From Chromatiaceae bacterium (GTDB lineage: Bacteria > Pseudomonadota > Gammaproteobacteria > Chromatiales > Chromatiaceae), in the NCBI GenBank assembly GCA_013426805.1, contig JACDZG010000065.1, positions 1 through 39,164 of the forward strand: a DNA stretch of 39,164 nucleotides, in the 5' to 3' direction. Below, piece by piece: positions 23,860-39,127 of this stretch. How positions within the stretch are numbered: position 1 is the first letter of the stretch; every line of letters starts with the position of its first letter. The position numbers and the translations under genes are program-made. The notes under the pieces are model-generated. The model did not search any database. It was not told the origin of the DNA and saw only the letters and a program-made list of their open reading frames with translations.

Positions 23860-24837
23860 ATGGACGACCTGACTCCCTCCGATCTAAAAACCATTCTTCA
23901 CTCAAAACGTGCCAACCTCTATTACTTGGAACAATGCCGGGTTCTGGTCAACGGCGGTCGGGTCGAATATGTGACAGACGAGGGAAAGCGTTCTCTCTAC
24001 TGGAACATTCCCATCGCCAATACCACCTGCATCCTACTCGGCACAGGCACTTCCATCACACAGGCGGCCATGCGCGAGCTTGCCAAGGCCGGTGTCCTGG
24101 TGGGCTTTAGCGGCGGCGGCGGCACACCCCTGTTCAGTGCCACCGAGCGCGATACCGATATCCTGTGGTTCTCGCCTCAGAGTGAGTACCGCCCGACTGA
24201 GTACCTTCAGGCGTGGGTGCGCTTCTGGTTCGACGACACACGCCGCCTCGCCGCGGCGAAAGCGATCCAGCGGGCGCGCCTCACCCGGATCCGTGACCAC
24301 TGGATAAAAGACCGGACGCTGGCCGGCAGCGGCTTTGTGATCGATCCTGGGCGCCTGGAGCCCTTACTCGACCGTTCACTGGAGGGCGTCGACACCGCGG
24401 TCGATGTCACCGCCCTGCTGACCGAAGAAGCGCGTTTGACCAAACAACTCTTCAAGCTTGCGGTTCAGGCGGTCGGCTACGGCGATTTCGTACGCGCCAA
24501 GCGCGGCACCGGCACCGATCCGGCCAATCGCTTTCTCGATCATGGCAACTATCTGGCCTATGGACTCGCGGCCACCGCCACTTGGGTGCTCGGCCTGCCG
24601 CATGGCTTGGCGGTACTGCACGGCAAGACGCGGCGCGGCGGTCTGGTGTTCGATACCGCGGACCTGATCAAAGACGCAACCATCCTGCCCCAGGCGTTCA
24701 TTTCCGCCATGAACGGGGACGATGAGCAGACCTTCCGCCGCTCCTGCATCGAGTCCCTCACCCGGACCGAGGCACTCGATTTCATGATCGACTCCCTGAA
24801 ACAAATCGCCGACGCGCTGGGGAACGCCGCGACATGA
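23860..24837 (+). CDS. cas1: CRISPR-associated integrase Cas1, subtype I-F
   Basis: A 325-residue Cas1f, the integrase that inserts new spacers at the leader end of the array together with the Cas2 domain of Cas2-3. The metal-binding residues are all present at E190, H254 and D268 (LTEEARLTK, AVLHGK, DTADLIKD), the same numbers as I recall for the Pseudomonas enzyme. The I-F-type N-terminus ILHSKRANLYYLEQCRV is present. It overlaps cas2-3 by 4 nt (ATGA). Confidence 0.97.
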   Translation: MDDLTPSDLKTILHSKRANLYYLEQCRVLVNGGRVEYVTDEGKRSLYWNIPIANTTCILLGTGTSITQAAMRELAKAGVLVGFSGGGGTPLFSATERDTDILWFSPQSEYRPTEYLQAWVRFWFDDTRRLAAAKAIQRARLTRIRDHWIKDRTLAGSGFVIDPGRLEPLLDRSLEGVDTAVDVTALLTEEARLTKQLFKLAVQAVGYGDFVRAKRGTGTDPANRFLDHGNYLAYGLAATATWVLGLPHGLAVLHGKTRRGGLVFDTADLIKDATILPQAFISAMNGDDEQTFRRSCIESLTRTEALDFMIDSLKQIADALGNAAT

Positions 24838-27800
24838 ACGTCATGCTGATCTCCCAGTGCAGTAAGAACGCGCTCACCGAGACACGCCGTATCCTCGACA
24901 ATTTCGCCGAGCGGCGTGGCGAGCGCAGTTGGCAGACCGCGATCACCAGGCAAGGGCTGGAGACTCTGCATCGGCTGCTGCGCAAAACCGCCCGCAAGAA
25001 CACGGCGGTGGCCTGTCTCTGGATTCGCGGAAAGGACCACAGCGAACTGATCTGGGTGGTCGGCGATAACCGCCGTTTCAACGCGGAGGGCGGCACCCCC
25101 ACCAACACCACACAGCGGGACGTGCTGCGCGCCGGCGACGAGGACGACTGGCACCATGCCGAAGATATCCGTTTGCTTGCCGCGCTCGCCGCCCTGTTTC
25201 ATGACCTGGGTAAAGCGAATCAAGCCTTCCAGAAGAAACTCACGAACACCAAACCGATGGCCGACGCGTACCGCCATGAATGGATTTCACTGCGCCTGTT
25301 CGAAGCGTTTGTCGGGCAGGACGAGGACCGCCAATGGCTGCAACGGCTGGTCGAATTGCCTGACCTTCCCGCCGTGGATTGGCAGGCTCGGCTACTGCGC
25401 GACGACTTGGGCCAGAAACCATCAACGCCACTGGCAAAACTGAAACCCCTGGCGCAGGCGGTGGGCTGGCTGATTCTTACCCATCACCGGATGCCCACCA
25501 ACCCGGAATACAACGCGGGCCTGAAAGAAGACCGACTGAAAAAAATCCAGGCACAGGTCAACGCCGACTGGTGCGGTGCCCGACCGGGCCTGACCCCCAA
25601 AGAAAAAGCCGCGTGCTGGACCTTTCGCGACGGTCTCCCCTTCGCCAGCCGTCACTGGTGCGCCCGCGTCAGCCGAATTTCCCAGTCCATGCTCTCCCGC
25701 CCTGCCCTGTTGGCCGATTCATGGCTGGATAATCCGTATGTAATGCACTTGTCGCGCCTGGCTCTGATGCTGGCGGATCATTACTACTCCAGCCAACCCT
25801 CGGATGCACGCTACGGGGATGCGGCATTCCCCCTGTACGCCAATACCGACAGGGACACCGGGCGTCTCAAGCAGCGCCTGGACGAACACCTGATCGGTGT
25901 GGAGGTCAACGCCTCCCGCATCGTGCGCAGTTTGCCTCGCGTGGAACAGCAACTGGCACGCATCGCGCGTCACAAGGGGTTTCGGCAACGCGCTCAGGAT
26001 GCACGGTTCCGCTGGCAGGATCGCGCCTTTGACTTGGCCATGAGCCTGCAACCGCGCGGCGCAAGGCAGGGGTTCTTTGGGGTCAACATGGCTTCGACCG
26101 GCTGCGGCAAGACGCTGGCCAACGGCCGGATACTCTACGCGCTGTCGCACCCCCAACTCGGCGCCCGGTTCAGCATCGCCCTGGGTCTACGCACCCTGAC
26201 CCTGCAAACCGGCGATGCCTACCGCGAACGCCTGGGCCTTGGGTCCGAGGATATGGCGGTCCTCGTCGGCGGCGGCGCCATCCGCGAGCTGCACGAACAC
26301 CACCGGGAACTGGAGCAATCCGGCTCCGAATCCAGCGCCGGCTTGCTGCCGGAACAGGGCTACGTCCACTTTGAAGGCAGCCTGGAAGACGGCCCACTCA
26401 ACCGCTGGCTGGATAAGAGTCCCGATGCGCAACGGCTGCTCAATGCGCCCATCCTCATCTGCACCATCGACCATCTGATGCCGGCCACCGAGGGCACCCG
26501 CGGCGGACGGCAAATCGCCCCGATGCTGCGCCTGATGAGCAGCGACTTGGTGCTCGACGAACCGGACGACTTTGGTCTTGAGGATCTACCCGCGCTCACC
26601 CGCCTGGTGCATTGGGCCGGCCTGCTCGGCAGCCGGGTCATCTTGTCTTCCGCGACCCTGCCGCCTGCCTTGATCCAGGGATTGTTTCAGGCCTATCGGG
26701 AGGGCCGGCGGATCTACCAAAACAACCGCGGTGAACCCGGACAGGCACTGTCGATCTGCTGCGCCTGGTTCGACGAGTTCGCCGCCGATGCCGCAGACCA
26801 CGCGACGGACGCGAGTTTCGCGACAGCCCATCACACCTTTGTCGATCGACGGCTGGAGAAACTGGCAAAGGCCGAGCGCCGCCGCCAGGCCGTCATCTAC
26901 CCCCTTTCCATCGCCATCGGTCAGCCGCGCGAGGCCATCTGTCAGGCCCTGGCCCTATCCCTACGCGATCAAATCACCGCACTGCACACCGCCCACCATC
27001 GGCCGGACCCGCAGACGGGCAAGCGCGTCAGTTTTGGGCTGATCCGCATGGCGAACATCGACCCGCTGGTCCTGACCGCTCAAGCCCTCTGTGCCTTGGA
27101 CCCACCCGCGGGTCAACGCATCCACCTGTGCGTCTATCACTCTCAGCACCCGCTGCTGGTGCGCTCCGGCATCGAGCGTCGACTCGATCGGCTGCTCAAC
27201 CGCAAGGACCCGGACGCCATCTTTCAGGACCCGGACCTGCGCGGGTGGCTGCACGATCACCCCGAACCGGATCAGGTCTTCGTCGTCATCGCCACCGCCG
27301 TGGCCGAGGTGGGGCGGGATCACGACTATGACTGGGCCATCGTCGAGCCTTCGTCGATGCGCTCGATCATCCAACTTGCCGGCCGGGTGCGTCGGCATCG
27401 GGCTGGCCCTTGCACAACGCCCAACATCCACCTGCTGGACACCAATTGTCGGCACCTGGAAAAGGGCGGCCGGGAACCCGCCTATTGCCGTCCCGGCTAC
27501 GAGAGTGCCGGGTTTCCACTTGATCGGCACGGCCTCGCCGACTTGCTGACCGAGGCCCAACTGGCCGCCATCGACGCTTCACCGCGCATCCGCGAACGCA
27601 CGCCGCTGCGGCCCCGCGAGAACCTGGCGGACCTGGAACATGCCTGCCTGCGCGCACTGATGCTGGGTGACCACGGGGACGGCGAGCAACAGGTCAACCC
27701 GGTGCATCTCTGGTGGAGCACCCGCGCCGCGCTCAGCGGCGAACTCCAGCGGGCTGCTCCCTTTCGCAACGATCCCCAGGGTCGTCAGCGTTACGTCCTG

Positions 27801-28082
27801 TTGCCCGACGATGACGGCGAGATCGATTTCAGGCAGATCCAGGACGACGGCTCAACCAAATCGGTCAACAACTTAAAACACGATCTCGTCCTCCAGCCAA
27901 ACCCGCGCTGCAACTTCTGGGGCGAGCCTGATTACAGCGCCGCCCTGGAGTCCCTCGCCGAGGCCCTGGGCCTGGAGACCGCCGCCTGCGCGCGAAAATT
28001 CGGCACCGTGGACCTGCCCGAAAAGGGCTGTGACCGGGGCTGGTTTTACCATCAGGCGCTCGGCTTCAGCCGCTTTAAATAA
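24834..28082 (+). CDS. cas3: Cas2-3 fusion: adaptation subunit plus helicase-nuclease, subtype I-F
   Basis: A 1082-residue fusion typical of subtype I-F. Residues 1-95 are the Cas2 domain (MNVMLISQCSKNALTETRRILDNF). The HD nuclease follows with ALFHDLGKAN (HD at 123-124). The superfamily 2 helicase has Walker A ASTGCGKTLANG (about 421), the DEAD-like box VLDEPDDF, SSATLP, and AGRVRRHR motif VI. It degrades target DNA after the Csy complex binds, and with Cas1 it takes part in spacer capture. The gene is intact at full family length. The gap after its stop separates it from the Csy operon. Confidence 0.97.
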   Translation: MNVMLISQCSKNALTETRRILDNFAERRGERSWQTAITRQGLETLHRLLRKTARKNTAVACLWIRGKDHSELIWVVGDNRRFNAEGGTPTNTTQRDVLRAGDEDDWHHAEDIRLLAALAALFHDLGKANQAFQKKLTNTKPMADAYRHEWISLRLFEAFVGQDEDRQWLQRLVELPDLPAVDWQARLLRDDLGQKPSTPLAKLKPLAQAVGWLILTHHRMPTNPEYNAGLKEDRLKKIQAQVNADWCGARPGLTPKEKAACWTFRDGLPFASRHWCARVSRISQSMLSRPALLADSWLDNPYVMHLSRLALMLADHYYSSQPSDARYGDAAFPLYANTDRDTGRLKQRLDEHLIGVEVNASRIVRSLPRVEQQLARIARHKGFRQRAQDARFRWQDRAFDLAMSLQPRGARQGFFGVNMASTGCGKTLANGRILYALSHPQLGARFSIALGLRTLTLQTGDAYRERLGLGSEDMAVLVGGGAIRELHEHHRELEQSGSESSAGLLPEQGYVHFEGSLEDGPLNRWLDKSPDAQRLLNAPILICTIDHLMPATEGTRGGRQIAPMLRLMSSDLVLDEPDDFGLEDLPALTRLVHWAGLLGSRVILSSATLPPALIQGLFQAYREGRRIYQNNRGEPGQALSICCAWFDEFAADAADHATDASFATAHHTFVDRRLEKLAKAERRRQAVIYPLSIAIGQPREAICQALALSLRDQITALHTAHHRPDPQTGKRVSFGLIRMANIDPLVLTAQALCALDPPAGQRIHLCVYHSQHPLLVRSGIERRLDRLLNRKDPDAIFQDPDLRGWLHDHPEPDQVFVVIATAVAEVGRDHDYDWAIVEPSSMRSIIQLAGRVRRHRAGPCTTPNIHLLDTNCRHLEKGGREPAYCRPGYESAGFPLDRHGLADLLTEAQLAAIDASPRIRERTPLRPRENLADLEHACLRALMLGDHGDGEQQVNPVHLWWSTRAALSGELQRAAPFRNDPQGRQRYVLLPDDDGEIDFRQIQDDGSTKSVNNLKHDLVLQPNPRCNFWGEPDYSAALESLAEALGLETAACARKFGTVDLPEKGCDRGWFYHQALGFSRFK

Positions 28083-28084
28083 CC

Positions 28085-28105
28085 CGCTGCCGCCTCAGCG
28101 GCAGG
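28085..28105. terminator. Hairpin after cas2-3, possibly a third decayed CRISPR-like repeat
   Basis: CTGCCGC/GCGGCAG forms a perfect 7-bp stem with a 4-nt loop, 5 nt after the cas2-3 stop. There is no T run. Read on the minus strand from 28109 it begins GTTGCCTGCCGC, close to a I-F repeat start, and it lies 35 nt beyond the CRISPR-like unit at 28145-28250. It may be a terminator, a relic repeat, or both. Confidence 0.45.
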
Positions 28106-28144: not shown

Positions 28145-28250
28145 CTGCAATGCTGCCTATCCGGCAGTTAACACTAAGTCTGACGTTAAAACAGTCAGTT
28201 AAATTTTCTAAGCTGCCTCTTCTTCCTGACCCATTGATCCGGCAGTGCGT
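28145..28250 (-). ncRNA. CRISPR-like single-spacer RNA (CreR-type candidate)
   Basis: Read on the minus strand. Pseudo-repeat A (28250-28205) has 5' part CACTGCC and 3' part AGGCAGCTTAGAAA, both identical to the array repeat, but with a 23-nt loop instead of 5. A 32-nt pseudo-spacer follows (28204-28173), exactly the I-F spacer length. Pseudo-repeat B (28172-28145) begins GTTAACTGCCGGATAGGCAGC, with stem CTGCC/GGCAG and a 5-nt loop GGATA, and then decays. Cleavage by Cas6f after each GGCAG would give an 8-nt handle CTTAGAAA, the 32-nt guide and a 20-nt stem-loop: a normal 60-nt I-F crRNA. An extended -10 like TGGCATACT (minus strand, 28262-28254) lies just upstream. The guide matches a site before csy1. 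Expression is inferred. Confidence 0.8.
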
Positions 28251-28284
28251 CTAAGTATGCCACTACCGCGACACAGGACTCTCC

Positions 28285-28313
28285 TTGACTTCTCAGGAAA
28301 ACTGGATTAATTT
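28285..28313 (+). promoter_or_regulatory. Predicted promoter of the csy operon
   Basis: -35 TTGACT (28285-28290), 17-nt spacer, -10 TAATTT (28308-28313); transcription should start near 28320. This leaves a 5' untranslated region of about 54 nt with GGAG before the csy1 ATG. Strong -35, moderate -10. The CRISPR-like target site starts right at the predicted start of transcription. Confidence 0.6.
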
Positions 28314-28318
28314 CCTTA

Positions 28319-28352
28319 TGTCTGATGTTTTTAAAAACTGTCAGATAAATGG
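28319..28352 (-). promoter_or_regulatory. Predicted target site of the CRISPR-like RNA, upstream of csy1
   Basis: Minus strand: PAM CC at 28352-28351, then a protospacer running 28350 to 28319. Against the 32-nt pseudo-spacer it is identical at 1-5 (ATTTA), 7-11 (CTGAC), 13-17 (GTTTT) and 19, mismatched at 6, 12 and 18, and largely unpaired beyond. Binding would cover the start of csy transcription, 22 nt from the csy1 ATG. The site is also an imperfect dyad, TCTGA...GTTTTTAAAAAC...TCAGA, so a protein operator is the alternative reading. Confidence 0.75.
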
Positions 28353-28373: not shown

Positions 28374-29678
28374 ATGGTCATGCCTTCGCCCCTTCCGCCG
28401 GACGCACCCCGCATCCGGGCCGTCATCGACGGATTCCTGCAAGAACGGCTCAAAACCAAACTGGACGCCTGCAAAGACGACGACAAGCGTCAAGCCTTGC
28501 TGGAAAGCCACCAACCCAAGACTTGGATCGCAGATGCCGCCCACCGTGTAAGCCATCTCCAGCAAGTTAGCCACGGGCTGAAATACACCCATCCAGACGC
28601 TCGGGGCACCAGCCTCAGCAGTCAAGGCAACTCCGTGGCCGGGGACGCTCTAGTTGGCACGCACACTTTGAACAGCAACGGCATCCCCGATGTGACGGGC
28701 AATGCTGCAGACTTAGACGTGCACAAATTCCTGCGCCTGGAAGTGGACGGCAAGACCCTGCTGACCCGTGCCATCGAAGCCGATCCGGCTCTAGCGGCAG
28801 CGCTGACGGACGATGTCGAACAGGCCCAATCCTGGATGGCCGCCTTCGCCGGACTCGCCGCCCCCAGGGGCGATCCGACCTCACACGCACTCGCCAAGCA
28901 GTTGTACTGGCCCTTGGACGACGGCTACCACCTGTTATCCCCCCTGTTTCCTACTAGCCTGGTGCACCGCGTCTGGACCACCATCCGGGACGACCGGTTC
29001 TCCGACACGGCCAAAGCGGCCCGCGAGGCCCGGCGCAACAAACAGCCGTACCCCCACGGTTTCCGCGAATACCCCGACTTCGCGGTGCAAAATTTCGGCG
29101 GTACCAAGCCGCAGAACATCAGCCAGCTCAACAGTGAACGCTACGGCGAGAACTATCTGCTCGCCTCCGTACCGCCCAGTTGGCACAGCGATCCGGTTCA
29201 ACCGCCGCTCAACGTGGAGACCGTCTTCGGTCGCTGGTTCGGCGGCCGGCCGCACGTGTATCAACTCACCACGATCCTCGGCAAGTTCCTGAGCAGCGTG
29301 CAGGATGCGAGCAGGAATAACTGGGGTATCCGCAACAAACGCGCCGAACTGGTCGACCTGATCCGCGATGAACTGGTGCAGTTCGCCGCTGAACTGCACG
29401 ACCTGCCCCCCGGCTGGAGCAGCCACGCGGACTGCCGTCTGAACCTCGAAGAGCGCTATTGGCTCGACCCGCGGCGCAGCCTGGAGGACGCGGCATTCGC
29501 CGCCGGACGCGCGTCGGCCGAGTGGCGTGACGCCATCTGCGGCCGCTTCGCCAACTGGCTCAATGCCCGCCTGAACACCGATCAGACCCCCATGGGCGAC
29601 CCAGAGCACCAGGAGTGGCGCACCGTCCTGGACGGCAAACTGCGTATGTTGCGCGAGGAGTTGGACCTTGATGACTGA
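28374..29678 (+). CDS. csy1: Csy1/Cas8f, large subunit of the I-F Csy complex
   Basis: A 434-residue Cas8f1, the subunit that with Cas5f binds the crRNA 5' handle and recognises the CC PAM. It begins MVMPSPLPPDAPRIRAVIDGFL. The family blocks KTWIADAAHRVSHLQQVSHGLKY-type, QNFGGTKPQNISQLNSER and a C-terminal helical bundle are present. Length is normal. ATG 28374 has GGAG 6 nt upstream. It is the first gene of the csy1-csy2-csy3-cas6f operon and overlaps csy2 by 8 nt. Expression is probably controlled from the site at 28319-28352. Confidence 0.96.
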   Translation: MVMPSPLPPDAPRIRAVIDGFLQERLKTKLDACKDDDKRQALLESHQPKTWIADAAHRVSHLQQVSHGLKYTHPDARGTSLSSQGNSVAGDALVGTHTLNSNGIPDVTGNAADLDVHKFLRLEVDGKTLLTRAIEADPALAAALTDDVEQAQSWMAAFAGLAAPRGDPTSHALAKQLYWPLDDGYHLLSPLFPTSLVHRVWTTIRDDRFSDTAKAAREARRNKQPYPHGFREYPDFAVQNFGGTKPQNISQLNSERYGENYLLASVPPSWHSDPVQPPLNVETVFGRWFGGRPHVYQLTTILGKFLSSVQDASRNNWGIRNKRAELVDLIRDELVQFAAELHDLPPGWSSHADCRLNLEERYWLDPRRSLEDAAFAAGRASAEWRDAICGRFANWLNARLNTDQTPMGDPEHQEWRTVLDGKLRMLREELDLDD

Positions 29679-30657
29679 CACCGCCGCTGTCTTGCTGCTC
29701 CCGCGCGTGCGGGTGCAGAACGCCAATGCCGTCTCCGGACCGCTGACCTGGGGCTTCCCGGCCCCTACCGCCTTTACCGGTTTCGCGCACGCACTGGAGC
29801 GCCGGCTGCGCGACCGGTTTGCAGTCGCCTTCGGCGGCGTCGGCATCGTCTGCCACCGCTTCGAACCGCAGGTCTTCAGCCCCCCAGGGCGCCGCAATCA
29901 GGTGCTGCGCCTGACCCGCAACCCGGTCTATGCCGGCTGGAAGAAATTCGAGGACAAACCGGCCGCCATCGTCGAGGAAGGCCGCACCCATCTGGAAGTC
30001 AGCCTGCTGATTCAAGTGCGCACCGACCTGGATCCAGACGACCGGGACGACCTGATGCTCGCCTTGCCCACCGCGGTGCATTCCATGCGGCTGGCCGGCG
30101 GCAGCATCCTGCCCGGGTATGAGCAACGCCATGAACCTGTCTGGATCGACTGGTTCGACGCCGCCAAGGACAACGCGGAAGCATTCCGCAAGTTGCGCCG
30201 CCGCCTGCTGCCCGGCTTCGCCCTGGTGCAACGCGCAGACCTCCTGGCGGAACGCTTGGCCGAAATGCGCTTGGATCACAGCGACGCCACCGCCCTGGAT
30301 GCCTTGCTGGACCTCTCCCGGCTCAACATCGAGCCGACCGCGCACAATCCCGATAAGCCGGAAGCGGTGGAATGGCAGGTCCGTAAGCGCCCCGGCTGGC
30401 TGGTTCCCCTGCCGGTCAGCTATGCCGCCCTGTCGCCCCTCTACCCACCGGGCGAGGTACGCAATACCCGCGACGACGCCACCCCCTTCTGCTTTGTCGA
30501 ATGCCTCTATTCGCTGGGCCAATGGCTGAGCCCGCACCGGATGACCGAACTGAAGCAGATCCTGTGGCAACTGGAGAGCGACCCCGAGGCCGGTCTCTAT
30601 CGCTGCATCAACCGCTATCCCGACACCATTCCAACCGCCATCAACGGCATTGCATAA
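29671..30657 (+). CDS. csy2: Csy2/Cas5f, subunit of the I-F Csy complex
   Basis: A 328-residue Cas5f, which caps the crRNA 5' handle beside Cas8f. Typical are [20 protein letters not shown]-type N-terminus, [16 protein letters not shown], and the C-terminal block [20 protein letters not shown]. It starts inside the end of csy1 (8-nt overlap), with GAGG upstream. A TTG at 29668 is also in frame. Full length. Confidence 0.95.
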
Positions 30658-30670
30658 GGAGACCCGCACC

Positions 30671-31729
30671 ATGGCCAAAAAAGCCGAGACCGTACTGAAG
30701 ACCGCGTCCGTCCTCGCCTTCGAGCGCAAGCTGGACCCTTCCGACGCAGTGTTTCACGCCGGTCGCTGGGACGACCGGAAGAACGCCGCCCAGTGGCCCG
30801 CCATCGGGCTGCGCGAGAAATCCGTACGGGGCACCATCTCTCATCGGCTCAAGACCAAAGACCAGCAGGATTCGGCCAAGCTCGATGCCAACATCCAAGA
30901 CCCGAACCTGCAAACAGTCGACGTTTCCACCTTGCCGACTCAATCCGACACCTTGCAGGTGCGCTTTACCCTGCGCGTGCTCGGCGGGGCCGGTGTGCCC
31001 TCCGCCTGTAACAACGCCGATTATCAAGCCAGATTGCGCGATACGGTTGCGCACTATGCCGATGCACCGGGTTTTGCCGAACTGGCAAGGCGTTATGCCC
31101 ATAATCTGGCCAATGGCCGCTTCCTGTGGCGCAACCGCATGGGCGCGGAACAGATCGAGGTACGCATCCGCCATCTGGAGCAGGGCAAGGAGCGTGCGTC
31201 CTGGGCCTTCGATGCCCTTAGCCTGTCCCTGCGCGCCTTCGACGCGCCAGCCCCCATGGATCAGGACCTAAAGGCACTGGCCGCGGTCATCAAGCAAGGA
31301 CTGGCCGGCTCAGCCTATGTCTTACTGGAGGTAACCGCCTATGCCCGCATGGGTGACGGCCAGGAAGTCTATCCGTCGCAGGAACTGATCCTTGATCGCG
31401 GCGACAAGCAGAAGGGTCAGAAAAGCAAGACCCTCTACAGTGTCGGCGGAGTCGCCGCCATGCACAGCCAGAAGATCGGCAACGCCTTGCGCACTATCGA
31501 TACCTGGTATCCGGATGCAGGCGACAACCTGGGACCCATCGCGGTCGAACCCTATGGTTCCGTTACTTCACAAGGCAAGGCGTATCGCCAGCCTGCTCAA
31601 AAGATGGACTTCTACAACCTGCTCGACCGCTGGGTTCTAATAGGTGAGGCGCCACCCCTCGACCAACAGCACTACGTCATGGCCAACCTGATCCGTGGCG
31701 GCGTCTTCGGGGACTCCGAGAAGGGTTGA
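30671..31729 (+). CDS. csy3: Csy3/Cas7f, backbone subunit of the I-F Csy complex
   Basis: A 352-residue Cas7f. Six copies form the backbone along the crRNA guide and flip out every sixth base, which matters for the pseudo-spacer match described for this locus. Family features: [48 protein letters not shown] and [21 protein letters not shown] 30671 is preceded by AAGGAG at 9 nt, which decides the start over the in-frame ATG at 30650. It lies 13 nt after csy2. Confidence 0.96.
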
Positions 31730-31732
31730 GCC

Positions 31733-32302
31733 ATGGATCATTACTTGGAGTTACGGCTGGTGCCTGACCCGGAGTTCAAGAGCACGGTACTCATGAATGC
31801 CTTGTTCGCCAAGCTCCATCGCGCCCTCTTTGACCTAAACAGCACCCGGATCGGGATCAGCTTTCCCGGAGTGCAGACCGACCCGAAACACCCTGGTCTC
31901 GGCGACCGCTTGCGACTGCACGGCACCGCCGCCGACCTGCACGGACTGATGGCGCTGGACTGGCTGACCGGCATGAGGGACCACACGGAGCTATATGGGT
32001 CGGCGCCGGTTCCCCGAACGGCCAGCCATCGCGTCGTGAGACGTGTCCAGGTCAAAAGCAGTCCTGAACGGTTGCGCCGCCGTCTGGCAAGACGCAAAGG
32101 CATCACCGACGCAGAAGCATGTCAAGCCATCTCCCAAGACAAGGCGGAACGGTTGGATTTACCGTATGTTACGATCACGAGTCGGAGCACCGGGCAGCGT
32201 TTCCGGCTCTTTATCGAACACCGCCCACCCGGTAGTACAATGATTGACGGCGCGTTCAGCTACTACGGTCTCAGCCCGACCGCCACCGTCCCTTGGTTTT
32301 GA
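31733..32302 (+). CDS. cas6f: Cas6f/Csy4, crRNA-processing endoribonuclease
   Basis: A 189-residue Cas6f, which binds the repeat stem-loop and cuts after GGCAG, leaving the 8-nt handle CTTAGAAA. The catalytic histidine is H29 (AKLHRAL) and the serine is S150 (VTITSRSTGQRF), equivalent to H29/S148 of the Pseudomonas enzyme. It has an Arg-rich helix (RLRRRLARRK, about 113-122) that reads the stem and the standard C-terminus SYYGLSPTATVPWF. It begins 3 nt after csy3 and ends at the array leader. Confidence 0.96.
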   Translation: MDHYLELRLVPDPEFKSTVLMNALFAKLHRALFDLNSTRIGISFPGVQTDPKHPGLGDRLRLHGTAADLHGLMALDWLTGMRDHTELYGSAPVPRTASHRVVRRVQVKSSPERLRRRLARRKGITDAEACQAISQDKAERLDLPYVTITSRSTGQRFRLFIEHRPPGSTMIDGAFSYYGLSPTATVPWF

Positions 32303-32431: not shown

Positions 32432-35400
32432 ATTCACTGCCGCGTAGGCAGCTTAGAAAAGGCGAAAGCGCCAGGTGCCGGGGATCAGGTCATTCACTGC
32501 CGCGTAGGCAGCTTAGAAAGGTCGCGTAGATGACCGTCCCGCCGCCGCCGAATTCACTGCCGCGTAGGCAGCTTAGAAAAGCAGCACCAGGTACCGCCCC
32601 GGCACCCCCAAATTCACTGCCGCGTAGGCAGCTTAGAAACGGGGGCGCGCCCGTATTTTTGGGGCCCGCAATATTCACTGCCGCGTAGGCAGCTTAGAAA
32701 TGAAAGCGACGTTTGGCGCCGCTGGGCTCGATATTCACTGCCGCGTAGGCAGCTTAGAAAGAAGGCCGCGAACACCGAGAGCCGTGCCGCCGATTCACTG
32801 CCGCGTAGGCAGCTTAGAAAACCGGAAGCCATCGCCGACACCATGGAGGGGAATTCACTGCCGCGTAGGCAGCTTAGAAATGGTTCTCGCCATTGGTCCG
32901 GGCGATGAAGGCATTCACTGCCGCGTAGGCAGCTTAGAAACGAGAGCCGTGCCGCCGCGCCGGCGGACAGCGCATTCACTGCCGCGTAGGCAGCTTAGAA
33001 ATATAGCCGCGCCGATGCATTGGCGGACGGCAAATTCACTGCCGCGTAGGCAGCTTAGAAAAAGCGGGAGGCGAGCGGGACGGACGGAGGCCCATTCACT
33101 GCCGCGTAGGCAGCTTAGAAAGCGAATAGAGGGAGAGCAGACATATAACCTCCATTCACTGCCGCGTAGGCAGCTTAGAAACGATCCGCGTTCGCTGTCG
33201 ATCATCGCGATCCATTCACTGCCGCGTAGGCAGCTTAGAAATGGGGAGGATTAAGAAATGGGCGATCCTGGCAATTCACTGCCGCGTAGGCAGCTTAGAA
33301 AACGCAATCGGCCCAGGCGGCAGCCGTGAGCGCATTCACTGCCGCGTAGGCAGCTTAGAAAAGCGAAGCCCGAGCCCGAGGACCCGCCGACCGATTCACT
33401 GCCGCGTAGGCAGCTTAGAAAATTGGTCCGGGCGATGAAGGCGAGCCCGTAATATTCACTGCCGCGTAGGCAGCTTAGAAAATAGACAGCACATCCCAGA
33501 GCCGACCGGATTCATTCACTGCCGCGTAGGCAGCTTAGAAATGGTTCTCGCCATTGGTCCGGGCGATGAAGGCATTCACTGCCGCGTAGGCAGCTTAGAA
33601 AGAAGGGCGGCGATGAACCGTGGTCTGGTTGTCATTCACTGCCGCGTAGGCAGCTTAGAAATGGGATCGCGAGCGGGAAGTGTGCCCGCAAGAATTCACT
33701 GCCGCGTAGGCAGCTTAGAAAGCCCGCGGTCGGCCGAATGCCGGTCAACTGCAATTCACTGCCGCGTAGGCAGCTTAGAAAGCGGCAACGGTCAGGACCA
33801 GGCCGCCGGCCTCATTCACTGCCGCGTAGGCAGCTTAGAAACATGACAAAAGGGGCGCGCTGTTTCTTGCTGAATTCACTGCCGCGTAGGCAGCTTAGAA
33901 AGCCATCGCATACGCCGTCATCAGCCGCGACCGATTCACTGCCGCGTAGGCAGCTTAGAAATGGAGGCACAAACGCGATCTCGATGCGCTGCGGATTCAC
34001 TGCCGCGTAGGCAGCTTAGAAAAGGGGCCGAGCAAGTGACGCCCGACGACGAACATTCACTGCCGCGTAGGCAGCTTAGAAAGTGGATGTGCTGCTGCGG
34101 GGGCCGAATGTCCCATTCACTGCCGCGTAGGCAGCTTAGAAAGCCGTCCACCGCCGCACCCGCACGCGATACGTATTCACTGCCGCGTAGGCAGCTTAGA
34201 AATGGCCCACGGCGACGACACGCTGCGCGACCAAATTCACTGCCGCGTAGGCAGCTTAGAAAAGAGCAGCCGCGCCGGCGGACGCCCAGGAGCCATTCAC
34301 TGCCGCGTAGGCAGCTTAGAAAAAAGAGTATTTTGAGGCTTTCCAAAAAGCTGAATTCACTGCCGCGTAGGCAGCTTAGAAATGATGTAGTAATCATAGC
34401 AGCGTTACCGGGAAATTCACTGCCGCGTAGGCAGCTTAGAAAACCCGCCCGACCAGGGGCACGGCGGCGCCCGGATTCACTGCCGCGTAGGCAGCTTAGA
34501 AAGACGGCAATCCGGTCTCGGTCGGTCAGTTCTTATTCACTGCCGCGTAGGCAGCTTAGAAAATGCCGGGGACAGCTTGATCGTCGATGGGGTGATTCAC
34601 TGCCGCGTAGGCAGCTTAGAAACAAGCTCCAATATGTCGCGGCCCGCATCAAAGATTCACTGCCGCGTAGGCAGCTTAGAAAACCAACACGCCGGCCGCG
34701 ACCGGCACCCAAGCATTCACTGCCGCGTAGGCAGCTTAGAAACGAACCACAGGAGGGCCACGGCCCGCGGCCGAATTCACTGCCGCGTAGGCAGCTTAGA
34801 AAAATGCATCGGCGCGGCTATAGGAGTGGATGACATTCACTGCCGCGTAGGCAGCTTAGAAAAACCCGGCTGGTGTCGACCCGAACTACCCGCAATTCAC
34901 TGCCGCGTAGGCAGCTTAGAAAGGGATCAGCCAAGCGGAAATCGCGACCGAGCTATTCACTGCCGCGTAGGCAGCTTAGAAAGGTAACAGAAGCGCAACG
35001 GCTCGAACCGGCAAATTCACTGCCGCGTAGGCAGCTTAGAAAGGAGAGAGAAGATGACACACCAGGCCGACACAACTCACTGCCGCGTAGGCAGCTTAGA
35101 AAAGGAAAGCCTCTCGCGTCTTCCAGTCCGTCATATTCACTGCCGCGTAGGCAGCTTAGAAAAGTTTCCACAGCACGCTGAGTTGCTCGACACCATTCAC
35201 TGCCGCGTAGGCAGCTTAGAAATATCGGTCTGCCGTGGCGTCAGGTCACGGTATATTCACTGCCGCGTAGGCAGCTTAGAAATGGGGCGTTAAAGGTACG
35301 TCGCTGGAGCGCTTATTCACTGCCGCGTAGGCAGCTTAGAAAAACGGCGCTATGTGGCTCGCGTTCGGCAACCCATTCACTGCCGCGTAGGCAGCTTAGA

Positions 35401-38400
35401 AAAAGGCTCCGCGTCGCAGCGCGTCCTGCTCGATATTCACTGCCGCGTAGGCAGCTTAGAAATCTACTGAGGGACTGGTGGTTGGGACCGCGGAATTCAC
35501 TGCCGCGTAGGCAGCTTAGAAAACTGCTGTTCGCCCGTTCGGAGAAAGCGAAAGATTCACTGCCGCGTAGGCAGCTTAGAAAATTCACCACCAACTCCGG
35601 TCCCAACGCCAACCATTCACTGCCGCGTAGGCAGCTTAGAAATGGGCGAGCGAGTCCACGCGCTCTTTCGACGCATTCACTGCCGCGTAGGCAGCTTAGA
35701 AAGTACCGGCCGGGGTGGCTTATACCAGCCCCGTATTCACTGCCGCGTAGGCAGCTTAGAAAAGGCCGCGGCATAGGTGCCGCTGGTGCCGTCCATTCAC
35801 TGCCGCGTAGGCAGCTTAGAAAATCATCCTGGTCGCGGAGGGCTACGCCACCGCATTCACTGCCGCGTAGGCAGCTTAGAAAATGGCGGTACTGGTTCCA
35901 TTGCCGCGCAAGAAATTCACTGCCGCGTAGGCAGCTTAGAAATGGGGTCGCAAGAAGCAGTGACCGCGGCCCTGTATTCACTGCCGCGTAGGCAGCTTAG
36001 AAAGGGGACACTTGGGCGTGGGTCCGCGATCTGCCATTCACTGCCGCGTAGGCAGCTTAGAAAGACTACCCGGCGCCGACCTGGGTCCTGAGTTAATTCA
36101 CTGCCGCGTAGGCAGCTTAGAAATTTGCGGCGCAGGTAGTCGGGCACCAGGTCGCATTCACTGCCGCGTAGGCAGCTTAGAAACAAGTCAAGGTAGCGCT
36201 TGCGCCCCCGCAGTTCATTCACTGCCGCGTAGGCAGCTTAGAAATATCCGCGCATACGACCGAGGCGCCATGTATCATTCACTGCCGCGTAGGCAGCTTA
36301 GAAATAAAGAACCAAGCCGATGGCTCTGTAGTCGTCATTCACTGCCGCGTAGGCAGCTTAGAAACGCAGGCGAGTACCGACCCCGACGCGAGCAGGATTC
36401 ACTGCCGCGTAGGCAGCTTAGAAAAGTTCGTCAGGTGCGGAACCGCGTCGATCTTGGATTCACTGCCGCGTAGGCAGCTTAGAAATCGATGTCGGCGAGC
36501 TCGTCCAGGGCGCGCAGATTCACTGCCGCGTAGGCAGCTTAGAAATGCAGTTGATCGGCATCCGGCCGACCGCGAGCATTCACTGCCGCGTAGGCAGCTT
36601 AGAAAAGGCCAACCCGCCGGCCGTGGTCCTGGACGATATTCACTGCCGCGTAGGCAGCTTAGAAAGTGGGTGGCGACGCCGGCGACGGCATCGAGGCATT
36701 CACTGCCGCGTAGGCAGCTTAGAAACCAAGACCACCTGCTGATCTTCCAGGTCTGCGCATTCACTGCCGCGTAGGCAGCTTAGAAATTCTCGCCCATGGC
36801 CAGCTCCAGCATGGTGCCATTCACTGCCGCGTAGGCAGCTTAGAAAAACGCCGCCTATTCGATGCCGTGGACCACCATATTCACTGCCGCGTAGGCAGCT
36901 TAGAAATGTACCACGGCCTATGCCGGTGGACATCTCAAATTCACTGCCGCGTAGGCAGCTTAGAAATACATCCCGCCGACCGCGTGGGAGTTTCGCGCAT
37001 TCACTGCCGCGTAGGCAGCTTAGAAATCATCGACCGCATCCCGGAGACCTTCACCATCATTCACTGCCGCGTAGGCAGCTTAGAAAATCGACGCATCAGA
37101 CATTGCCCATGCCGCCCAATTCACTGCCGCGTAGGCAGCTTAGAAAAGCCGCAGCCCTTGCGTGCGCCAGTAAGCGACATTCACTGCCGCGTAGGCAGCT
37201 TAGAAAGCCTTGGTCGCCGCCTTCTCCGCCTTCTCCGCATTCACTGCCGCGTAGGCAGCTTAGAATGTGACACCCTGTATCCTGACCACCACGCCAACAT
37301 TCACTGCCGCGTAGGCAGCTTAGAAATGGCACCAAAGCACTGGATTTTACCTCGGCACATTCACTGCCGCGTAGGCAGCTTAGAAATGAATGGCGATCGA
37401 CGTCAGCTTCACGTCCTCATTCACTGCCGCGTAGGCAGCTTAGAAAACTCCCCAGCCCAAGGCTTTCGCGTGATCTTCATTCACTGCCGCGTAGGCAGCT
37501 TAGAAAGCGGGCTGTTCCTGCGCGGGCTAGACGCTGGCATTCACTGCCGCGTAGGCAGCTTAGAAATGACCGGCGGGGCCGATGCCGAAGACGACGACAT
37601 TCACTGCCGCGTAGGCAGCTTAGAAAGTGAGGGGCTGGAGCGATTTTGTACGGCACCGATTCACTGCCGCGTAGGCAGCTTAGAAAACGGCAAAGCGATT
37701 ATCCGCATCTACCGCAACATTCACTGCCGCGTAGGCAGCTTAGAAAAGCTTCGATGGCCGCACCCATGCCCGCCGGATATTCACTGCCGCGTAGGCAGCT
37801 TAGAAAGAGTGGAAACGGATAAGCCTCGCTATTCGCGAATTCACTGCCGCGTAGGCAGCTTAGAAAAGCGTCATGCCGGCGGCGATCGCCAGTTCTTTAT
37901 TCACTGCCGCGTAGGCAGCTTAGAAACGGCGCGTACCGCGAAGCCGGCCGGTCGATGTATTCACTGCCGCGTAGGCAGCTTAGAAATACCGGGAGTCAGC
38001 CGCCTGATGGCCCTCCCCATTCACTGCCGCGTAGGCAGCTTAGAAACGGCGCTTGTCGAGTCGCGCGTGATCGTTGACATTCACTGCCGCGTAGGCAGCT
38101 TAGAAAATGAACAGCGACGCAAGCCGCGCGATCAATGCATTCACTGCCGCGTAGGCAGCTTAGAAAACGTCGCCGACCTTGAACCAGTAGTAGTTCTCAT
38201 TCACTGCCGCGTAGGCAGCTTAGAAACATCAACTCGGCCGCCTTGGCGCCGGTGAGGTCATTCACTGCCGCGTAGGCAGCTTAGAAAATCGACGTGGACG
38301 GCACCGCGCGCCCGACGACATTCACTGCCGCGTAGGCAGCTTAGAAAAGACACGAACAGGCCGCGCTGTCCGGGTCCACATTCACTGCCGCGTAGGCAGC

Positions 38401-39127
38401 TTAGAAATGGACGCGCGCGATCAGGTCGGCCAGGGATGGATTCACTGCCGCGTAGGCAGCTTAGAAAATCCAGGATGCCGTGCTGCAGTATCTCGCCGTA
38501 TTCACTGCCGCGTAGGCAGCTTAGAAAAAGAGCCACGGAGCGCCACTTAGGCACCCCACATTCACTGCCGCGTAGGCAGCTTAGAAAATGCGCCAACCTG
38601 GGCGCAGCGGAAAACCTGCATTCACTGCCGCGTAGGCAGCTTAGAAAACCAGGTCAACGCGTCCAGCCTGAGCGGACCAATTCACTGCCGCGTAGGCAGC
38701 TTAGAAAACCGGCAGTTCGCCCGGCTCGGCCATCGCCGCATTCACTGCCGCGTAGGCAGCTTAGAAACCCAGCCGCGCCACCATCCGGTCGATGCGCTCA
38801 TTCACTGCCGCGTAGGCAGCTTAGAAATGGAGCGGGGCCAGTTCGAGCAGGGTCGGCACATTCACTGCCGCGTAGGCAGCTTAGAAAAGCACGCGGCCGG
38901 GCGGATGGTCCAGGCCGGGATTCACTGCCGCGTAGGCAGCTTAGAAAGCCAAGAAGGGCAAAGCAAAACAGGACATCAAATTCACTGCCGCGTAGGCAGC
39001 TTAGAAATATGACGCTTCCATCGCCCAACTGGTTGGCTAATTCACTGCCGCGTAGGCAGCTTAGAAAACACCCGGTTCTCCCACGCCTTCCGGTCTGGCA
39101 TTCACTGCCGGCTCTTCGGGATCTCAG
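32432..39127 (+). CRISPR. Type I-F CRISPR array, 112 repeats and 111 spacers
   Basis: The 28-nt repeat has 5' part ATTCACTGCC, loop GCGTA, arm GGCAG and handle CTTAGAAA, with a 60-nt period. Repeat starts fall one per 60 nt from 32432 to 39100 with eight single-nt register shifts, giving 103 spacers of 32 nt and eight of 33 nt. Variants: the repeat at 35075 begins ACTCAC, and the one at 37240 ends AGAAT. The terminal repeat (39100) keeps only ATTCACTGCCG, marking the distal end. The first nucleotide is A, where most I-F repeats have G. One spacer occurs twice (32881 and 33542), and several overlap on the same target. Long open frames through the array are artefacts of periodicity. Confidence 0.99.

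Follow-up and report, generated by a model that had tools for sequence, protein, structure and literature searches.

The 39,164-nt contig JACDZG010000065.1 from a Chromatiaceae bacterium (assembly GCA_013426805.1) – hereafter the window, which is one whole contig out of the 349 that make up a 7.6-Mb assembly – carries a type I-F CRISPR (clustered regularly interspaced short palindromic repeats) locus that is complete: cas1, cas2-3, csy1-csy2-csy3-cas6f and a CRISPR array. Within the 291-bp gap between the cas2-3 stop (28082) and the csy1 ATG (28374) there is a minus-strand unit made of a degenerate repeat, a 32-nt guide and a second degenerate repeat. We propose that this unit is, very probably, a Cas-regulating RNA (CreR) of the type I-F system, through which the Csy complex would repress the operon that encodes it: the guide fits the start of the csy1 operon in the way that a I-F complex pairs with DNA, so that the complex probably lowers its own production. 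The anatomy of the unit, its match to the site before csy1, the uniqueness of that match in the genome, the conservation of pairing in relatives and the co-change with the nearest relative were all observed directly.

A preliminary description of this DNA had placed two degenerate I-F repeats around exactly 32 nt on the minus strand, and these coordinates are confirmed (Table 1). CRISPR RNA (crRNA) of type I-F carries an 8-nt 5' handle and a 20-nt 3' handle (PMC5965380; statements from the literature, here and below, refer to the available parts of each source). If Cas6f cuts as usual, the mature RNA of the unit would extend from 28212 to 28153 (8 + 32 + 20 = 60 nt); the 8 nt beyond the second repeat, PsiR2 (28152-28145), show no match to the handle. 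The unit is a mini-CRISPR inside the cas locus whose degenerate repeats keep the parts needed for processing, as in CreR. The loop of the first repeat, PsiR1, is enlarged from the 5 nt of the array repeat to 23 nt; among the relatives described below it measures 23 nt in locus L003 and 36 nt in L006, the loops of the other 28 units spanning 3-8 nt, and GGAAGAAGAG is common to the loops of the window and L003. An array spacer was rejected as the source of the guide, the best ungapped identity among the 32-nt stretches behind the 109 exact repeats being 13/32. A search of the window and nine loci with Rfam at the gathering threshold gave no match in the gap; matches (tRNA, CRISPR-DR4) were returned in the window only.

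The pattern of pairing first reported – identity of guide and protospacer at positions 1-5, 7-11, 13-17 and 19, mismatches at 6, 12 and 18, and a CC protospacer-adjacent motif (PAM) at 28352-28351 – proved correct, and further mismatches fall at 20-26, 28, 29, 31 and 32. When the 7.6-Mb assembly was searched for CC followed by guide positions 1-17, with 6 and 12 free, a single site without mismatch was found: the csy1 target. At up to two mismatches the only further site is the guide itself, and at three there are two more genomic sites (a reversed-pattern control gave five sites at up to three). The guide matches the promoter region of its own cas operon, the position of the promoter being predicted and the promoter weak. 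L003 and L006 share the layout of the window: the target follows the putative -10, and both the TTGAC of the putative csy1 promoter and the TGGCATACT are invariant. The latter, which precedes the first repeat on the minus strand, is likely to be the creR promoter. In other loci (L005, L007, L071, L099, L111, L118, L125 and L128) the PAM, GG on the csy1 strand, abuts by eye a TTGA that is likely the -35; compared with the window, where the target lies after the putative -10, these would be two different blocking positions.

To place the unit among its relatives, 112 csy1 upstream regions were collected (21 drawn from the family, 30 from the whole class and 61 from two more orders) and scanned with a detector based on hairpin and handle only, which had no knowledge of the target. 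Candidates were counted as matched if at least 13 of 18 guide positions agreed with a site next to CC upstream of csy1 in the same locus; the 18 positions carried equal weight, and the selection of pairs thus favours no position. On the minus strand the detector returned 35 candidates in 33 loci, of which 31, in 31 loci, match their own locus at 13-18 of 18 positions (26 distinct guides). The four remaining candidates (one in L029, two in L050, one in L130) are without a convincing handle and look like chance hairpins. Matched against other loci, near relatives included, the 31 guides reach 13 in 40 of 3441 comparisons, and shuffled minus-strand guides do so in 153 of 9300. Relatives that keep the repeats around a guide with no match upstream of csy1 would, according to the preliminary description, have spoken against its reading; the 31 matches among 35 candidates instead lend support to Csy-guided self-repression. 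Guides range from 15 to 33 nt across the 31 units, and only that of the window is exactly 32 nt.

Of the 21 plus-strand candidates 11 match (nine distinct guides), all of them in family f207. Mismatches occur at position 6 in five of the nine guides, at 12 in seven and at 18 in five; there are none at 1-5 and 7-9, and one or two each at 10, 11 and 13-17. A looser detector, which weighs the flipped positions and was kept out of the statistics, adds four loci and brings those with a unit to 46 of 112. Left out of the set were csy1 pieces lacking the 5' end (L019, L022, L023), a fragment (L080), duplicates within one genome (L001, L033, L024 = L003; L025-L048 apart from L029 and L045) and csy1 matches that were weak or second pieces (G537, G322, G518 and the second pieces of G527 and G961). 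L045 has only 164 nt of upstream DNA and the csy1 frame of L075 contains stops. A previous scan of 50 of the loci at a looser cut (12/18), which found 18 loci, is superseded.

The distribution of mismatches over the 26 distinct guides is far from even. Position 6 is mismatched in 23, position 12 in 19 and position 18 in 20; the other fifteen positions of 1-17 contribute, pooled, 21 mismatches in 390. Taken together positions 6 and 12 are mismatched in 42 of 52 cells, an excess that none of 20,000 permutations reached, and when the phase is varied, phase 6 accounts for these 42 of 52 while every other phase has 1 to 7 of 78. From 18 on pairing is near chance, with 15-21 of 26 guides mismatched at positions 19 to 28. 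In structures of type I-E complexes bases 6, 12, 18, 24 and 30 are flipped out (PMC5965380), and every sixth base has a weak effect on the type I-F complex in human cells (PMC7305327): the mismatch map follows the rule by which type I complexes pair.

Comparison of some close relatives shows guide and target changing together. The guides of the window and of same-genus L003 differ at positions 2, 3, 4, 9, 14, 17 and 18, and at 2, 3, 4, 9 and 14 the target has changed in step, such that both loci remain paired. Co-change is also seen between the window and L006 (positions 2, 4 and 10) and between L003 and L006 (3, 10 and 14). Judged from the relatives the fit of guide to target is preserved by evolution. 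The expectation that mismatches would stay at 6, 12 and 18 in relatives is borne out; the accompanying expectation of co-change is clearly realized between the window and L003 and partly or not at all in other close pairs.

An alternative to CreR, to which we give a small chance, is that the unit encodes CreA, the antitoxin RNA of a CreTA addiction module: pairing with the target would then silence a toxin, either an RNA or a small gene, with csy1 no more than a bystander. Type I-F CreTA is known from the cas3-csy1 gap of three Acinetobacter (PMC10097628), an identical gap with equivalent parts: a PsiR1-PsiS-PsiR2 unit, a CC PAM and a target downstream of the creT start. Its antitoxin function needs the Csy complex, and not Cas1 or Cas3 (PMC10097628). 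The module of Acinetobacter sp. WCHA45 resembles the window in gap, divergent orientation, order of PsiR1, guide and PsiR2, CC PAM and a target placed after the promoter start, and the window does hold a CreA-like unit with a CC-flanked target in that gap. The guide of the WCHA45 module, however, is 20 nt long, and between its target and csy1 lies a toxin RNA that contains a 33-bp mini open reading frame (ORF) (PMC10097628); in the window the guide has 32 nt and the gene that follows the target is csy1. In the window 21 nt separate the end of the PAM from the csy1 ATG, and this interval, like the corresponding ones of L003 and L006, contains no small ORF preceded by a Shine-Dalgarno sequence, such as creT. 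No toxin gene was found under control of the target; a toxin RNA that is not translated may overlap the leader.

What the target appears to control differs among relatives, and part of this variation favours CreTA. The PAM lies within about 85 nt of csy1 (start codons as read by us) in 14 of the 31 loci, which are spread over several branches of the Csy1 tree. In six loci the stretch from target to csy1 holds a tandem AGA AGA frame preceded by a Shine-Dalgarno sequence: the frame is short (8-11 codons) in L004 (genome G074), L005 (G124), L007 (G165), L053 (G450) and L058 (G486), and has 29 codons in L010 (G038). RRV or RRA directly precedes the stop in five of these six leaders; a further flagged AGA frame, in L125, sits within csy1. 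The two groups cover 14 and six loci, and the remaining 11 carry neither label. Since tRNA-UCU is what CreT sequesters in the system described first (PMC12737573), the six leaders look like CreT, and we consider them candidate type I-F CreT RNA toxins outside Acinetobacter. On a quick Csy1 tree the CreR label, assigned before the tree was built, needs 10 changes, at least eight of them forced by well-supported branches; with shuffled labels the mean is 13.4, and one shuffle in 500 was as low as 10. The window pair (L002/L003) falls in a six-row fork (support 91) together with CreT-like L004/L005.

In f207 loci, among them L095, L101 and L121, unit and target are both on the plus strand and the target lies about 720-1080 nt upstream of the Csy1 match (306 in L119). 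L095, L101 and L121 have an ORF of about 105 aa between target and csy1 and L119 has none; the 107-aa protein of L095 has no Pfam match at E 0.001. L101 seemingly contains, by eye, two tandem guide/target units. Units of f207 with the small ORF are possibly a protein-toxin version. The chances are about even, in our estimate, that the I-F cas3-csy1 gap is a standing regulatory slot, in which one guide unit locked to Csy at positions 1-5, 7-11 and 13-17 has had three evolutionary outputs – csy1 repression, a tandem-AGA RNA toxin and a small protein – and that the window represents CreR within a clade where the toxin form occurs as well.

Decay offers a further explanation: the unit could be what is left of a CRISPR array or of a self-targeting spacer, and have no function today. 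The repeats are indeed degenerate, half of each is kept, and pairing ends at 17. However, the conserved halves are those that would be retained in a mature RNA. Over the family the 4 nt before the stem agree with TTCA at 3.00 of 4 positions in repeat 2 and 1.52 of 4 in repeat 1; the handle, scored over seven bases, averages 6.77 in repeat 1 and 2.45 after repeat 2, where this part of the repeat is not kept. The handle figure for repeat 1 is partly by construction, because the detector required handle-like sequence there; the TTCA comparison and the loss of the handle after repeat 2 are independent of that requirement. Moreover, pairing at positions 1-17 is maintained, 6 and 12 aside, across the 26 distinct guides, whereas decay would spread mismatches evenly. 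On the conserved halves and the kept pairing we reject a degenerate remnant as very unlikely. Less credible still is that guide and csy1 site are alike because both hold the operator of one protein repressor: imperfect inverted repeats (CTGAC...GTCAG, TCTGA...TCAGA) are visible by eye in both, but none is seen by eye in the guide or target of L007 or in the L003 guide, where pairing is kept, and an operator needs neither handle, nor CC, nor mismatches at every sixth base, so that this explanation too is rejected.

The primary paper on CreR is reportedly that of Liu et al. 2023. In review accounts CreR is a mini-CRISPR partly complementary to the promoter of its own cas operon, through which the effector represses itself (PMC12737573, PMC13131331, PMC12948488); the unit in the window shares the mini-CRISPR form and the partial match to the promoter region of its cas operon, would share the autorepression, and differs in its type I-F effector and repeats. 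CreR is listed for I-B, I-E and V-A (PMC13131331), or for Type I and V-A without subtypes (PMC12737573). In the part of the literature that was searched no description of a type I-F CreR was found, and the primary CreR paper or the supplement of PMC10097628 may contain an I-F entry. What the evidence supports is autorepression guided by a CreR-like RNA, in a subtype from which we found no CreR described. The preliminary description did not have the I-F CreTA that occupies the same gap in Acinetobacter, nor the CreT-like leaders of six relatives. Another 19 creTA modules, detected by eye where related Cas3 and Csy1 genes adjoin, are reported alongside (PMC10097628), so that some of the present units may be in the supplement of that paper.

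The map of every sixth base over many natural guides comes from the present set and not from the CreR reviews in their available parts. It is close to the mutagenesis of an I-F CreA, where 17 of the 20 guide positions pair (not 6, 11 and 18), positions 2-5, 7-9 and 13-17 are needed, 1 partly, and 10, 12, 19 and 20 are dispensable, function returning with matched double changes at 5, 7 and 15 (PMC10097628); the exception is position 10, which is conserved here. CrePA likewise uses a crRNA-like RNA to silence a promoter via the effector, but its target is a protein toxin, typically with a KilA-N domain (PMC12737573); no toxin protein gene follows the target of the window, the next gene being csy1. 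The solitary repeat RNAs of phages (Racr) are also repeat mimics encoded outside an array, but are phage-borne inhibitors (PMC10651486), whereas the unit in the window is inside the cas locus and has two repeats and a promoter-matching guide.

Several observations weigh against CreR in the window or across the family. The pattern of L003 is imperfect, with mismatches at 12 and 17 and a match at 6; between L011 and L015 guide and target co-changed at position 4, one further guide change has no counterpart in the target, and no co-change was found in the close pairs L013/L016, L099/L111, L134/L136 and L004/L005. The 23-nt loop of PsiR1 makes cutting by Cas6f likely, not certain. The PsiR1 hairpin is also absent from the fold that prediction favours for the 103-nt precursor. 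The target does lie before the csy1 ATG, as the preliminary description held, but its position at the start of transcription is a prediction: the putative -10 has 3 of 6 consensus bases, and a promoter scan called no csy1 promoter, the putative one being below threshold. Given six relatives with a CreT-like frame, the family is not uniformly CreR. Finally, 66 of 112 csy1 loci are without the unit by any detector used, which means that I-F systems do not need it.

If the unit is CreR, a minus-strand transcript would start at the promoter just outside the first repeat, and Cas6f would cut both hairpins to yield a 60-nt crRNA-like RNA that is loaded into the Csy complex. With 15 pairable positions (1-5, 7-11, 13-17) the complex would bind the CC-flanked site at the predicted transcription start of csy1-csy2-csy3-cas6f and block transcription of the operon; pairing that ends after 17 should be too short to license Cas2-3. 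The output would be negative feedback on Csy complex free of array crRNA, with relief expected from many competing crRNAs or from an anti-CRISPR. Expression, processing, repression and its release are what we infer by analogy; in a close system, the I-F CreTA of Acinetobacter, an RNA of similar build has been shown to repress in dependence on the Csy complex (PMC10097628).

The features of the window are collected in Table 1. Its Csy1 is 84% identical to that of same-genus genome G003, and a Csy1 search of genome contigs returned one relative. Within the array one spacer is duplicated, identical stretches of 29 letters preceding two repeats (32884 and 33545). In a relative (L024:10278-10338) an array spacer holds the reverse complement of the 3' part of the repeat (TTTCTAAGCTGCCTA), creating an inverted repeat-like stretch within the array.

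Table 1. Features of the cas2-3/csy1 gap and of the type I-F locus in the window
Feature	Position	Strand	Remarks
cas2-3	24834..28082	+	Cas2 domain, HD, helicase, C-terminal domain; Pfam PF21384, PF18019, PF22590, PF21802
Terminator-like hairpin, end of putative creR transcript	28087..28104	-	beside cas2-3 stop; terminator scan; weak T tail
Second repeat (PsiR2), 20 nt kept in mature crRNA	28153..28172	-	16/20 identical to array repeat
Guide (pseudo-spacer), 32 nt	28173..28204	-	sequence reading
5' handle CTTAGAAA	28205..28212	-	8 nt, identical to last 8 nt of array repeat
First repeat (PsiR1) hairpin	28213..28245	-	5-bp CTGCC/GGCAG stem, 23-nt loop
Putative creR promoter, extended -10 (TGGCATACT)	28254..28262	-	9/9 bases invariant in window, L024, L006; putative function
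Putative csy1 promoter TTGACT, 17 nt, TAATTT	28285..28313	+	TTGAC invariant in three-way alignment; -10 similar by eye
Protospacer of guide	28319..28350	-	just downstream of putative csy1 -10; pairs at 1-5, 7-11, 13-17, 19
CC PAM	28351..28352	-	sequence reading; CC is the I-F PAM in PMC10097628
csy1 (cas8f), first gene of Csy complex operon	28374..29678	+	PF09611
csy2	29668-30657	+	csy2-cas6f block (29668..32302) matches PF09614, PF09615, PF09618
csy3	30650-31729	+	block matches as for csy2
cas6f/csy4	31733-32302	+	block matches as for csy2
CRISPR array	32432..39067	+	repeat ATTCACTGCCGCGTAGGCAGCTTAGAAA, 109 exact copies

The mixture of CreR-like and CreT-like loci on the Csy1 tree raises the question of how an addiction toxin could give way to simple feedback, or the reverse. 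The 26 distinct natural guide/target pairs are an evolutionary measure of how Csy reads DNA when it binds without cutting, and the rule they give – every sixth base free, pairing ending at 17 – is directly testable and broadly agrees with the mutagenesis of one I-F CreA (PMC10097628). If CreR is the correct reading, RNA-guided autorepression of cas genes would extend to type I-F, a subtype much used in work on CRISPR and anti-CRISPR, and the unit would be a natural sensor of free Csy complex.
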